Part shown: piece after piece, positions 26,706 to 37,054 of the stretch
Layout: each line of letters opens with the position of its first letter
Numbering within the stretch: position 1 is the stretch's first letter
Virus record (IMG/VR): IMGVR_UViG_3300045915_000019
Coordinates: 1-37,382 of that record
Source: a virus
DNA: 37,382 bases
Reading direction: 5' to 3' (one strand)
Position numbers and translations under genes: made by a program
The notes under the pieces: model-generated
Seen by the model: only the letters and a program-made list of their open reading frames with translations
Database searches by the model: none
What the model was told of the DNA's origin: nothing

Positions 26706-26716
26706 GGAGATATGTG

Positions 26717-27013
26717 ATGCGAAATCTTGATCTAGAACGAGCGCGCGAATTACTCGCTGAAGCGGATAAGCCACGCTGTCTGGGGCTTTATGTATCGAAG
26801 CGTGATGAACCACTGGAGGCCTTACTAAGGATTCGGGAATTTCTTGTATTGGCGGGCGGTGATGATGCTCATGCACTTGTCGTTGTGTGTCTGGACCGCG
26901 TTATCGAGACCTTGGGTGGATTCGCGAAGCGCATTGTATATGAGCACGCTCCAGATCGGCAGCTCTACCCAATCTGGCAGCCAAAACAGGTGCGCGAGGA
27001 ACAGAAGAAATGA
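26717..27013 (+). CDS. Hypothetical helical protein (98 aa)
   Basis: A 98-residue protein with helices at residues 4-16 (LDLERARELLAEA), 33-45 and 50-70 (DAHALVVVCLDRVIETLGG) and a polar end. No motif is recognised. GAGGAGA lies upstream of the ATG, and its stop overlaps the TcmP-like gene start (ATGA), so it is part of the same message. Confidence 0.58.
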   Translation: MRNLDLERARELLAEADKPRCLGLYVSKRDEPLEALLRIREFLVLAGGDDAHALVVVCLDRVIETLGGFAKRIVYEHAPDRQLYPIWQPKQVREEQKK

Positions 27014-27807
27014 CGCAGGGCCAGGGGCCGAGTACGCCCGACAAGGAGCGCAAACTTGGCGCGATGTTCGATATGCAGGGCAATCTGTATCTAAAAATCA
27101 ATGCGCTCTTTTATGGCCCGGCATACCACATAGACCTGAATGCAGGATGCGGGCATAATCATGCCTTCAATGAGCCGGGCAGCCCGATTGTGTTTTTGGA
27201 TGTCATGCGCGCCCGGTATCCGAGCGTGCCCTTTCGCGCTTGGTTCATTGACCGTGATGTGGCCGCCATCAACGAATTGAAAGATCGAGTTGCGAACCGC
27301 TATGGCCATCTGGACAATGTGTCGATTATGTGTGCAGATAATCGCGATGCCCTCATTCAGATCGCGCCGCAACTAGAGCCGCACTGGGCAACAGGCAGCG
27401 TCCTAGCAGATCCCAATGGCTGGTTGTCCCGCAACAAGAAGGACAAGAGCGGCGTGCCCGTTGAAGAACTGAAGCAGTTTGCTCATCTTTTCCGGCGCAT
27501 GGATTTGCTCATGAATCTGAATGTGCGCAGTTACCGCCTTCAAAGCGGCTGCGATTACGAAACGTATTCTGCGCCAGAATTCGGCGCCTTATTCATGCGC
27601 TCCCATTGGCTCATTACGCGGGCGGCCCACAACGAACACAGCACGTTCATTTGTCTCATGGGCCGCAATCTGAAGACCAGCGGTTACAAGAAATACGACT
27701 GGTACGAAATGAACTCGCCAACAGGGCTGGATATCTTGAATGGTCTAGAAATCTCCAAGCGGCATTTCGGGCCACAAAATGGAACCCTATTCGATGAAAT
27801 CACCTAA
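27010..27807 (+). CDS. TcmP-like methyltransferase-fold protein
   Basis: A 265-residue protein resembling the three-Cys-motif partner family TcmP, with a Rossmann-like methyltransferase fold. Seen: DLNAGCG (near residues 43-49, SAM-loop type), GSPIVFLDV, FIDRDVAAINEL (near 79-90), CADNRDAL and ADPNGW (near 133-138, the motif IV position), then a helical C-terminal part. The reaction is unknown. TcmP genes are named for standing next to three-Cys radical-SAM-like proteins, and here the next gene is exactly such a protein, overlapping by 14 bases. The pair probably acts together. Confidence 0.72.
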   Translation: MTQGQGPSTPDKERKLGAMFDMQGNLYLKINALFYGPAYHIDLNAGCGHNHAFNEPGSPIVFLDVMRARYPSVPFRAWFIDRDVAAINELKDRVANRYGHLDNVSIMCADNRDALIQIAPQLEPHWATGSVLADPNGWLSRNKKDKSGVPVEELKQFAHLFRRMDLLMNLNVRSYRLQSGCDYETYSAPEFGALFMRSHWLITRAAHNEHSTFICLMGRNLKTSGYKKYDWYEMNSPTGLDILNGLEISKRHFGPQNGTLFDEIT

Positions 27808-29278
27808 AGCGATTCCGCTCTCGCGGCTTACTGCGCATCCCGATAATCCCCGGCTTATGCCAGCCGAGGAAATCATTGGGCAAATTGCCGCAGCCATTCG
27901 CGAGCGGGGCTCATTCGATGTTGCGCATGCGTTGATCGTGCGGCCGCTGGGCGATACGTATCAGATCGTGAGCGGCCACAACCGCGCAGAAGCGGCCCGC
28001 CGAGCAGGCCTGGATGCGGTGCCTGCATGGATTCGCGAATTGAGCGAGGACGATGCTCTGCTCATGCTGATCACCGAAAATGCGCAACGGGAATTGCGCC
28101 CACTTGAACGTGGTCTCCATGCGCTGAAGTGCATCAAGAAGGGCAGCCATAAAGACGGGATCGAGGCGTATGCGCGTGCCATCGGCAGGGAAGCGGAACT
28201 GCAAACAGTCAAGCGTGAATATTGGGCGGCAGAAGTGGCGACTGCGGCACAAAAAGAACAACGTTGTTCTTTTTCAGATGTGGTCAAGTACTACCTGCAT
28301 CTGGCGGAGATCCATGCCGCGCCGCCCGAGGTTTGGGGCGCTTTGGTTGAGCGGCTCATTGCGGATACCTGGACGGTCCAGGAGGCGCGCCAGCATGCTC
28401 AGGCGGCTAATGCAAAAGCCAAACGCGAGGAGCAGGCGCGGGTCAAGACTGTAATGGTGCTCGATGAATGGAAGGCTGCGAAGCCGATCGATCGCGGAGA
28501 TTTTCTGGGAGCGTGGCGCACTATCGAAAAGCCGACCACGCTCAACCGCCAGGACACCACATCGATTGACTGGGCCAAATGGTCATGGAACCCGGTGACT
28601 GGCTGCCAGCATAATTGCCCATACTGCTACGCACGCGATATCGCAGAGCGCTTCTATGCGGAAAAATTTCAGCCGGCCATTCATATCGACCGCCTGGGCG
28701 CACCGGCCCATACCCCAGTGCCGGCCACTGCATCGCAGGACACCAGCCTGAAAAACATCTTTACCTGCTCGATGGCTGACCTGTTCGGCAAATGGGTCCC
28801 GAAACAATGGATCGAAGAAGTGCTTGGCGTGGTGCGCGAGAATCCGCAGTGGAATTTCCTGTTTCTGACGAAATTCCCGCTGCGTATGGCTGAGTTTGAA
28901 TATCCGCCGAATGCCTGGTTGGGCACAAGCGTCGATTTGCAGGCGCGAGTCGCCAATGCCGAGCGCACGATGCGAGAAGTGCGCGCATCAGTGAAATGGC
29001 TGAGTCTTGAGCCATTATTGGAACCTCTAGTATTCGAGGATCTGAGTGCATTTAACTGGGTCGTGATCGGCGGCGCGAGCGCCAGCAATCAGACGCCGGA
29101 ATGGCGACCGCCGCAGCAATGGGTCTACGATCTGACGGCGGCAGCGTTACGTGCGGGCTGTGCTGTTTATCACAAGACTAATCTCGACGAGTTGCGCCTA
29201 AAGGCATTCCCATGGGTAAACACGGCACAGGAGAAGGCACTTCCTGATGTCTTCCGCTACCTGAAGGTGATTGCATGA
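27794..29278 (+). CDS. ParB-nuclease / three-Cys (DUF5131) fusion protein
   Basis: A 494-residue fusion. Residues 8-110 are a ParB/Srx-like domain with the SGHNRAEAARRAG core (60-72), in the position of the usual GxxR motif. Residues 110-245 are a helical linker with a Cys near 158. Residues 258-494 are a Gp37/Gp68-like DUF5131 domain with SWNPVTGC and the CxxxCxxC motif Cys271, Cys275, Cys278 that in radical-SAM enzymes holds an iron-sulfur cluster. Starting at ATG 27794 gives the shorter overlap; ATG 27779 would add five residues. It probably modifies a nucleic acid or nucleotide, but the substrate is unknown. Confidence 0.78.
   Translation: MKSPKAIPLSRLTAHPDNPRLMPAEEIIGQIAAAIRERGSFDVAHALIVRPLGDTYQIVSGHNRAEAARRAGLDAVPAWIRELSEDDALLMLITENAQRELRPLERGLHALKCIKKGSHKDGIEAYARAIGREAELQTVKREYWAAEVATAAQKEQRCSFSDVVKYYLHLAEIHAAPPEVWGALVERLIADTWTVQEARQHAQAANAKAKREEQARVKTVMVLDEWKAAKPIDRGDFLGAWRTIEKPTTLNRQDTTSIDWAKWSWNPVTGCQHNCPYCYARDIAERFYAEKFQPAIHIDRLGAPAHTPVPATASQDTSLKNIFTCSMADLFGKWVPKQWIEEVLGVVRENPQWNFLFLTKFPLRMAEFEYPPNAWLGTSVDLQARVANAERTMREVRASVKWLSLEPLLEPLVFEDLSAFNWVVIGGASASNQTPEWRPPQQWVYDLTAAALRAGCAVYHKTNLDELRLKAFPWVNTAQEKALPDVFRYLKVIA
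28251..28274 (+). repeat. Perfect 24-bp palindrome inside the ParB fusion gene
   Basis: AAAAAGAACAAC followed directly by its complement. It lies in the linker between the ParB-like and three-Cys domains. In RNA it could form a hairpin ending in U5 like a terminator on either strand; in DNA it is shaped like a dimer-binding site. Confidence 0.85.
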
Positions 29279-35349: not shown

Positions 35350-36248
35350 ACGCCTACATCGCAGTGCCCAAATGGCTTGACGCAGCGATAGGCGCCAACC
35401 GGCTTAGTAAAACCGTTCTGGTGAGGATCGATGACCACCACAATCGCGTCACCGGCCAGTGCAATCCGCGGCTTCAGACGCTCGCGCATGAAATCGGCGT
35501 CAGCATTCGCACCATAACGCGCGCACTATGCCAGCTCCGCAGCCTGGGATTGGTCAGGAGTCGGAGGACGCGCCGCGGCAATCACTACGTCTGCGCGCCG
35601 CGCTCCGAGTGGCGCGAAATTCTGACTAGACATGCCTGTCCAATGGACACAAATGTCCAATCCGGATTGGACACAAATGTCCAATCTTCGCGCGCGCGCG
35701 TTCTATTAACTGAATTACCCCAAGGTGAACTTTGCTTCGAAGACGTGCCGTGCCTTTCCTCAGGAGTATTGGACTCAGAGGCCGGCGGCGGCACGGCGCA
35801 AACTCCGGTTGAAAAGCAGGAAGTCCCGGTACGCCCGGTTACGCCAGAGCAGTTGGCCGCGGAGTTGGCCGAGCGGCATCCTGAGCCGGGACTACTTGGT
35901 CGGGTACCCGGAGAAATACGGGATGTGCTGCGAGCGGTGGCGCCGGCCATGCGCGACCAGGTCATTGCGCGGATCCGTGCCAGCCATCAGCGGTGGCGTT
36001 ATTTCTGGGCCGATCATCCGACTCGATTCAAGCCGCAACTCTGGCGCTGGCTGCGCGATGGGGATTGGGCGCATCCGCCGGCAGCCGCGGCATTTACGGG
36101 TACGCCACCGCCGCATGCGGAGCGCAAGCCGGTGGCGCGCGCAATGTCCTGTGAGAAATGCGAGCAGCAACCCGGTTGGGTGACGATCATACGGCGCGAC
36201 TTGCCGTTTACCGAGCCGTGCGGGTGCCGGCAGCGAGGTGCGGCATGA
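35343..36248 (+). CDS. Replication-initiator-like HTH protein carrying iterons
   Basis: A 301-residue protein. Residues 3-100 have an HTH (TLAHEIGVSIRTITRALCQLRSLGLV, near 41-66) followed by a wing, as in phage replication organisers, and a nearly repeated MDTNVQSG/LDTNVQSS pair (near 100-115) encoded by the 24-bp-period DNA repeat at 35637-35683. The middle is Pro/Glu-rich. A helical domain (EIRDVLRAVAPAMRDQVIARI, RWRYFWADHPTRF) and a C-terminal CEKC...CGC zinc site (near 273-297) follow. Repeats within the initiator gene suggest the origin lies here, as for lambda O. Confidence 0.78.
   Translation: MVDAYIAVPKWLDAAIGANRLSKTVLVRIDDHHNRVTGQCNPRLQTLAHEIGVSIRTITRALCQLRSLGLVRSRRTRRGNHYVCAPRSEWREILTRHACPMDTNVQSGLDTNVQSSRARVLLTELPQGELCFEDVPCLSSGVLDSEAGGGTAQTPVEKQEVPVRPVTPEQLAAELAERHPEPGLLGRVPGEIRDVLRAVAPAMRDQVIARIRASHQRWRYFWADHPTRFKPQLWRWLRDGDWAHPPAAAAFTGTPPPHAERKPVARAMSCEKCEQQPGWVTIIRRDLPFTEPCGCRQRGAA
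35637..35683 (+). repeat. Iteron-like repeats, origin candidate
   Basis: Two exact copies of the 16-base palindromic unit TGGACACAAATGTCCA (35644-35659 and 35668-35683), 24 bases apart, joined by ATCCGGAT, with an extra TGTCCA at 35637. Just behind are (CG)n (35690-35700) and an AT-rich stretch (35700-35720) that could unwind. All of it is within the initiator-like gene. Confidence 0.72.
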
Positions 36249-37054
36249 TCGAGCCTGCGCGATTGTTTGATTACGATTTGCTCGATGCTGACACGGCGAG
36301 TTATTTGCGAATACATGCTAGTCGGATTCACGAGTTTGCTCGCGCCACCGCAATAGGCATCGTTCAGATCGGCCTTCACCTGACAGAAGCCAAGAACCGG
36401 GTTGGGCATGGGAAGTTTCTCAAATGGATCGAGGCGGAATTCGCATGGACTTATAAGACGGCGGAGCGATTCATTGGCGTATATCAGCGAATCAAAATAG
36501 ACAATTTGTCTAATTTGGCTATCGACGTCTCGGCGCTCTATCTCATTGCTGCACCACGCACAGCCGAACCGGTACGTACTGAAGTTATCCGGCGCGCCGA
36601 AGCGGGCGAGCCTATTACGCATCAAGCGGTGGTCGCACTTCGTAAGCAGTATCAGGAGACGGGCGAACTCCCAGATTCAACTACCGAACTCATCGCGCTA
36701 GTCCAGGATGGGAAGCGGCGCCTCGAAGAAGCAAAGCAGACCTTTCCATCCCCAGCAGCAGCGCGTCAGATCGCGATTCAGACCGGCAAACATACCCGCG
36801 ATTGGAATGGCACATATCAACCACCCATGTCGCAATCGGACGAGGCGCAATGGAATGCCGACCGGAACGTGGCCGATGGCGTCCGGGACTTTGTCGCCTG
36901 GTCTGCGTCTGCTCCGGCCCCAAATGAAATCGCCAGGACGATCCTGAAACATCATTGGACCCGTGAGTTTAATGAGGCAGATCTAGTGGCGGCGATCGAA
37001 TGGCTCTATCAGTTCAAGGAGGCGTTTTATGGTAAGGCGCAAATTGCGCGATGA
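36245..37054 (+). CDS. DUF3102-domain protein
   Basis: A 269-residue protein with a DUF3102-like N-terminal half: RIHEFARATAIGIVQIGLHLTEAKNRVGHGKFLKWIEAEFAWTYKTAERFIGVYQRI (near 27-83), a helical domain found in many phage and plasmid proteins near replication genes. Residues 95-160 are helical (LYLIAAPRTAEPVRTEVIRRAEAGEPITHQAVVALRK, ParB-like in style), and the C-terminal 100 residues are of unknown fold. The start overlaps the upstream stop (ATGA). The exact role is unknown. Confidence 0.78.
   Translation: MIEPARLFDYDLLDADTASYLRIHASRIHEFARATAIGIVQIGLHLTEAKNRVGHGKFLKWIEAEFAWTYKTAERFIGVYQRIKIDNLSNLAIDVSALYLIAAPRTAEPVRTEVIRRAEAGEPITHQAVVALRKQYQETGELPDSTTELIALVQDGKRRLEEAKQTFPSPAAARQIAIQTGKHTRDWNGTYQPPMSQSDEAQWNADRNVADGVRDFVAWSASAPAPNEIARTILKHHWTREFNEADLVAAIEWLYQFKEAFYGKAQIAR

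Follow-up and report, generated by a model that had tools for sequence, protein, structure and literature searches.

A TcmP-like methyltransferase gene paired with a ParB-DUF5131 fusion in a phage genome: a candidate DNA base-modification system

Two overlapping genes of a phage genome, one encoding a relative of the methyltransferase family TcmP and the other a fusion of a predicted ParB/HTH module to the three-cysteine domain DUF5131, may constitute a two-enzyme base-modification system that is targeted to DNA and used in early infection, a reading to which we assign a probability of roughly 0.4. Both families, TcmP and DUF5131, occur widely on plasmids, transposons and phages; we found no account of their reaction in the open-licence literature. 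Because the fused clade physically ties TcmP and DUF5131 to a DNA-binding ParB module, DNA is the leading candidate substrate. That the pair consists of two small genes makes the question of a DNA substrate testable, and a recurrent HNH gene provides a third component.

Genomic position of the pair

The window, that is, the whole stretch of DNA that was analysed, is virus record IMGVR_UViG_3300045915_000019 (IMG/VR), 37,382 bases long. Its left part carries terminase, portal and HK97-type capsid genes; further along come RecE-like and RecT-like genes (23-26 kb) and a serine integrase (32.7 kb). The pair sits after the RecT gene, inside a co-directional block with the RecE/RecT genes, and comprises the following features.

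26714-27013, plus strand: small upstream ORF, translationally coupled to the TcmP-like gene (ATGA), no family match
27010-27807, plus strand: TcmP-related protein of 265 aa with a predicted class I SAM-methyltransferase fold; motif I DLNAGCG and motif-IV-like ADPNG, FIDRD also present
27794-29278, plus strand: ParB N-domain and HTH fused to DUF5131, 494 aa, or 499 aa from an alternative start at 27779
27794-28372, plus strand: ParB N-domain and HTH, residues about 1-193, with Box II GHNRAEAA (R64) and an ENAQRELRPLE motif
28448-28546, plus strand: linker helix VMVLDEWKxxxxxxR..., common to fused homologues regardless of the N-terminal module
28559-29176, plus strand: DUF5131 domain (PF07505), putatively of radical-SAM type
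28604-28627, plus strand: CX3CX2C motif with C271, C275 and C278 (numbered from the 27794 start), invariant in 69 homologues

The two overlapping, co-directional ORFs on which the original prediction was based (27010-27807 and 27779/27794-29278) are real. The TcmP start codon lies inside the stop of the upstream gene (ATGA), and the TcmP and fusion ORFs overlap by 14-29 nt, the alternative fusion start being an ATG 15 bases upstream of 27794. Consensus promoters and terminators are no more frequent in the region than in shuffled sequence, and no separate promoter can be claimed for the pair. No base-biosynthesis gene was recognised in the subset of window genes that was scanned.

The TcmP-like protein

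NCBI named TcmP for its association with a three-Cys protein (NCBIfam TIGR04474). This model matches the window protein at E = 4e-9 with 36.8 bits, under the NCBI curated cut-off of 53, and by NCBI's rule the protein is therefore a relative of TcmP and not a member; 17 of 27 relatives are matched at E<=0.01. Profile-profile comparison joins the window-type family to canonical plasmid TcmPs with 98.6% probability over 164 columns. Structure prediction (mean pLDDT 85) yields a Rossmann methyltransferase fold with a SAM loop, and in Foldseek searches the model matches class I methyltransferases, among them PsiM, RlmJ, Trm1 and CamA. These enzymes resemble the model in fold but are 10-16% identical to it, and the [DNS]PP[YFW] motif of class I N6-adenine methyltransferases is absent; DPNG stands in place of DPPY. 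Among 64 homologues, the SAM-loop residues D42, G46 and G48 are kept in 97%, 94% and 86%, D134 is present in 100% and K12 is invariant. The methyltransferase fold that had been proposed from DLNAGCG, FIDRD and ADPNG is upheld by these results: all three motifs are found, the predicted fold is of the expected kind and the SAM loop is conserved.

The ParB/HTH module and the DUF5131 domain

The N-terminal half of the fusion is predicted, from sequence and modelled structure, to be a ParB-CTPase/HTH DNA-binding module of the CTP-binding, DNA-clamp type. PF02195 (ParB_N) passes with 50.5 bits against a curated cut-off of 26.3, and the ParB partition model TIGR00180 scores 53.2 bits, below its curated cut-off of 58.45. 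In the structure prediction of the whole fusion (mean pLDDT 89.9), the first 200 residues resemble ParB, Noc and KorB, including ParB solved with parS or CTP analogues (Foldseek against the PDB, E about 1e-10), and in a sequence profile of 26 fusions residues 7-192 align with Caulobacter ParB 42-230, which spans the N-domain and HTH. The Box-II arginine is retained (GHNR, R64); according to PMC12704722, mutation of the equivalent arginine in other ParB fusions abolishes nucleotide binding. The module is well conserved within the window's subgroup, and no ParA was found among the neighbour genes scanned. The original prediction had described a ParB/Srx-like nuclease domain. Its ParB part stands; the nuclease part is rejected, as the matches are canonical ParB/Noc/KorB structures and there is no sign of nuclease function.

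In the C-terminal half, PF07505 (DUF5131) passes with 145 bits against a curated cut-off of 28.9. C271, C275 and C278 are invariant in 69/69 homologues, which settles the conservation of these cysteines in favour of the original prediction, and besides them about 30 DUF5131 positions are invariant across these diverse sequences. The radical-SAM assignment of the domain, for which motif, fold and weak profile matches speak, is probable: the Pfam radical-SAM model PF04055 gives 16.8 bits on the window fusion, under its curated cut-off of 29.5, and weakly matches 29 of the 69 fusions, while DUF5131 weakly matches the SplB-like PA0069 and Rv2578c radical-SAM models. Once matches to the ParB/Srx fold are set aside, RlmN and spore photoproduct lyase rank among the best in the Foldseek search, at a modest E of about 1e-3 and a TM of 0.3-0.4 across the full chain. 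The fold searches return a methyltransferase fold for TcmP and, for the fusion, a ParB fold and a putative radical-SAM fold, in keeping with the original prediction. RlmN and spore photoproduct lyase have the CX3CX2C motif in common with the fusion, and perhaps the fold; the fusion differs from them by its low sequence similarity, its ParB module and its methyltransferase partner. The cysteine spacing sets the fused clade (CX3CX2C) apart from canonical plasmid DUF5131 members (CX6CX2C).

Fused relatives and their neighbours

As sole query in a single-protein search, the window TcmP found no match in viral contigs; genome contigs searched with A1 contained no relative, and tblastn of phage records with the window TcmP retrieved nothing. 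The family was reached instead through the fusion, which alone served as query against viral and genome collections; systems were counted as distinct when their DUF5131 cores were <90% identical. The window included, 69 distinct fused systems were found. In 64 of them (the window and 63 of the 68 others) the fusion has a TcmP-like gene as its immediate same-strand neighbour, upstream in all but one; the pairing and the ParB fusion noted in the window recur among dozens of further phages. Gene calls in the surveyed loci were mechanical, and the TcmP matches in fused systems (4e-24 or better) come from a profile iterated on the same loci, so that their E-values are not independent. Distances between TcmP proteins correlate positively and weakly with those between DUF5131 domains (Mantel-type r 0.33), which adds little beyond linkage because the N-modules give about the same value (r 0.28).

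Five fused lineages are without TcmP (L072, L073, L079, L148 and L172). At L148:2470-3573, its place is taken by another ORF that overlaps the fusion start, has no Pfam match and looks Rossmann/methyltransferase-like by eye. At L006:7236-8750 and L073:8236-9750, where the fusion stands without TcmP, a C5-cytosine DNA methylase lies about 470 bp downstream (472 bp). At L045:1278-2237 and L049:5722-6708, TcmP is directly followed by a GmrSD_N/DGQHR-like gene (ParB-fold type), and these 53-55 kb records hold no DUF5131.

PF02195 matches 25 of the 69 N-termini and others match ParB-like PHROGs; a few fusions (L050, L057, L062, L016 and L148) carry another N-module that is not recognisably ParB. 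The N-terminal modules differ, but those that could be identified are DNA-binding types, and what the different N-modules have in common is a short linker in which a Trp-Leu pattern is conserved. Profile-profile comparison joins the window-type and L003-type N-modules only in the linker; relatives of the L003-type module match ParB-like PHROGs. In L057, the replacement N-module has a weak match to phrog_1733, the PHROG of a DUF3102 protein encoded elsewhere in the window (36158-37054).

A tree built from 50 DUF5131 sequences places the fused proteins on one side of a branch with support 99/99. Unfused phage and plasmid DUF5131 lie outside, and the fused side also holds unfused cyanobacterial DUF5131 that still adjoin TcmP. 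N-module types, assigned partly by eye, are scattered over the fused clade, so that the DNA-binding modules appear to have been exchanged among fused proteins. In three cyanobacterial genomes (L075, L077 and L078), TcmP is accompanied by a DUF5131 that is unfused but branches within the fused clade, which suggests that the N-module was lost in these members.

In 23 of the 69 systems, L004, L005, L009, L010, L015, L048, L050, L057, L062 and L071 among them, TcmP and the fusion have between them a small ORF (about 75-90 aa) that shows an HNH-type zinc pattern and overlaps both genes or lies near them. Of six such ORFs tested with Pfam HNH, that of L071 scores over the cut-off, one scores under it and four have no match, so that the HNH label rests mainly on the pattern. 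The window's cassette has no HNH gene. On a Burkholderia plasmid (L114), an annotated HNH gene overlaps an unfused DUF5131 by 4 bases. We found no description of the TcmP-HNH-fusion arrangement in the open-licence literature.

Discussion

In the reading we favour, the pair is a DNA-modification system whose expression would accompany that of the phage genes for early recombination and replication. The ParB-CTPase/HTH module would load onto DNA and bring the DUF5131 radical-SAM domain there, perhaps under the control of an NTP switch, and TcmP, as a class I methyltransferase like the RlmJ/Trm1/METTL16-type N-methyltransferases, would act together with the fusion. The likeliest product would be a phage DNA base that carries a modification or hypermodification, protecting the phage or marking self; the benefit may lie in such protection or, alternatively, in action against competitors. 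The fused module and the DNA methyltransferases that neighbour some relatives point to DNA as the substrate, and the motif and fold suggest radical-SAM chemistry. The two genes, their linkage, domain composition, predicted folds and conserved motif residues are established, whereas the succession of steps and a protective function are inferred. This reading draws on the adjacency of TcmP in 64/69 systems retrieved with the fusion as the only query, on the matches to RlmN and spore photoproduct lyase, both radical-SAM enzymes of nucleic acids, on the N-terminal match to ParB bound to parS or CTP, on the conserved cysteines, TcmP SAM loop and D134, on RlmJ, PsiM, Trm1 and CamA among the TcmP fold matches, on the DNA-binding type of the identified N-modules, on DNA methyltransferases that neighbour or replace TcmP, on the ParB-domain proteins that occur with phage DNA carboxymethylation genes, and on the co-directional RecE/RecT block with its start/stop overlaps. 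Against it count the small-molecule and RNA methyltransferases among the TcmP structure matches, DPNG in place of the canonical DPPY, the sub-threshold PF04055 score with a modest radical-SAM fold match, the five lineages without TcmP, the cyanobacterial members without a fused N-module and the listing of the families as candidate defence by PADLOC. A more elaborate, three-part form, in which a CTP-switched ParB clamp would carry the radical-SAM enzyme along DNA, TcmP would prime the base and a small HNH protein of the cassette would be optional, is a tentative proposal that we lean against. If true, the ParB-clamp reading would reveal a new phage DNA modification and, with it, a new route by which radical chemistry is targeted to DNA.

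The main rival to DNA modification is defence, which we consider unlikely: the pair, with HNH in many relatives, would be an anti-phage or superinfection-exclusion system of a temperate phage, one that detects incoming DNA, damages it or makes the infection abort. The PADLOC candidate systems PDC-M30 and PDC-M41 are made of the same TcmP and DUF5131 families, and the window fusion matches their B component at E 2e-40 and 4e-38. Among P. aeruginosa strains, 68.8% of 32 PDC-M30 carriers are phage-resistant, a correlation only (PMC10855318). Plasmids of Streptomyces, Pseudomonas, Roseibium, Agrobacterium, Leisingera and Leptospira carry unfused pairs, some of which have Abi genes, a type ISP restriction-modification enzyme, or a helicase with a GIY-YIG nuclease as neighbours; in Gordonia phage Bosnia, gp44/gp45 (L195:3558-5410) form an unfused, convergent DUF5131/TcmP pair in the immunity region, between integrase and immunity repressor; PMC12445080 names a TcmP gene, SMa2243, together with the Hna defence gene SMa2245; and the HNH-type ORF of 23/69 fused cassettes would also fit a defence role. 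The PADLOC entries, however, are unverified predictions, and other work has set PDC entries aside as either unpublished predictions or not verified by experiment (PMC12409356). The window TcmP misses the PDC-M30/M41 A models, which several relatives do match, the window has no HNH partner, and its fusion lies in the early recombination/replication block, coupled upstream and with no sign of its own promoter.

Other readings are less probable still. Spore photoproduct lyase, which the fusion matches in structure, invites the idea of DNA repair, in which the radical-SAM domain would reverse a lesion as that enzyme does while ParB scans for damage and TcmP is accessory. The weak profile similarity to SplB-like radical-SAM families and the recombination genes close by agree with it, but the sequence similarity to the lyase is weak, and neither a tightly linked methyltransferase nor exchangeable DNA-binding modules are known in lyase repair, which makes the idea improbable. 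We rate as quite improbable that the pair modifies RNA (tRNA or rRNA) and so counters host defences that cleave tRNA or block translation: the top structural matches do include RlmN, RlmJ, Trm1 and MnmM, yet the ParB and HTH modules point to DNA and neither protein was found to have an RNA-binding domain. That the fusion is a regulatory or partition-like DNA-binding protein with a vestigial enzyme domain is more improbable again. Phages frequently carry orphan ParB proteins, as PMC12704722 reports, and conservation of the ParB module in the window's subgroup would suit such a role; the invariance of the cysteines and about 30 further DUF5131 positions over 69 sequences argues the other way, as does the fact that the exchanged part is the N-module and not the enzyme domain.

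How new is the candidate base-modification pair? The original prediction had named it the best candidate in the window for an undescribed system. The TcmP-DUF5131 pair as such is already catalogued (TIGR04474; PDC-M30/PDC-M41) and is not new, while the ParB-fused clade, with its HNH-containing form, appears to be undescribed in the open-licence literature. The catalogued TcmP / DUF5131 (phage Gp37/Gp68) pair likewise has the two families side by side on mobile elements; in the window DUF5131 is instead fused to ParB and HTH and has CX3CX2C spacing, the shorter TcmP precedes the fusion gene, and in many relatives an HNH ORF intervenes. Phage fusions of the ParB-CTPase fold, such as ParB-N6_N4 MTase and ParB-DUF3850, share with the window protein ParB_N, the Box-II arginine and a putative DNA-modifying domain; the DUF5131 fusion is absent from the main text of that survey, whose supplement may list it (PMC12704722). 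The phage DNA carboxymethylation genes CmoX/CmoA/CmoY are comparable in that methyltransferase-type modification genes occur with ParBc proteins; the enzymes differ, and no radical-SAM or TcmP partner was found described in PMC12783734. Proteins with a ParB domain occur together with these carboxymethylation genes, and their fusion to DNA methyltransferases is common (PMC12783734, PMC12704722).

Several unfused loci deserve mention. A C5 methyltransferase lies near unfused DUF5131 in RcapNL and Acaryochloris. A DprA-like gene is found near the Gordonia phage Bosnia pair. ASCH-domain genes recur near unfused DUF5131 without annotated TcmP (L111, L113, L198 and L200). On S. meliloti pSymA (L069), DUF5131 is followed by TcmP, and this is possibly the SMa2243 locus of PMC12445080.
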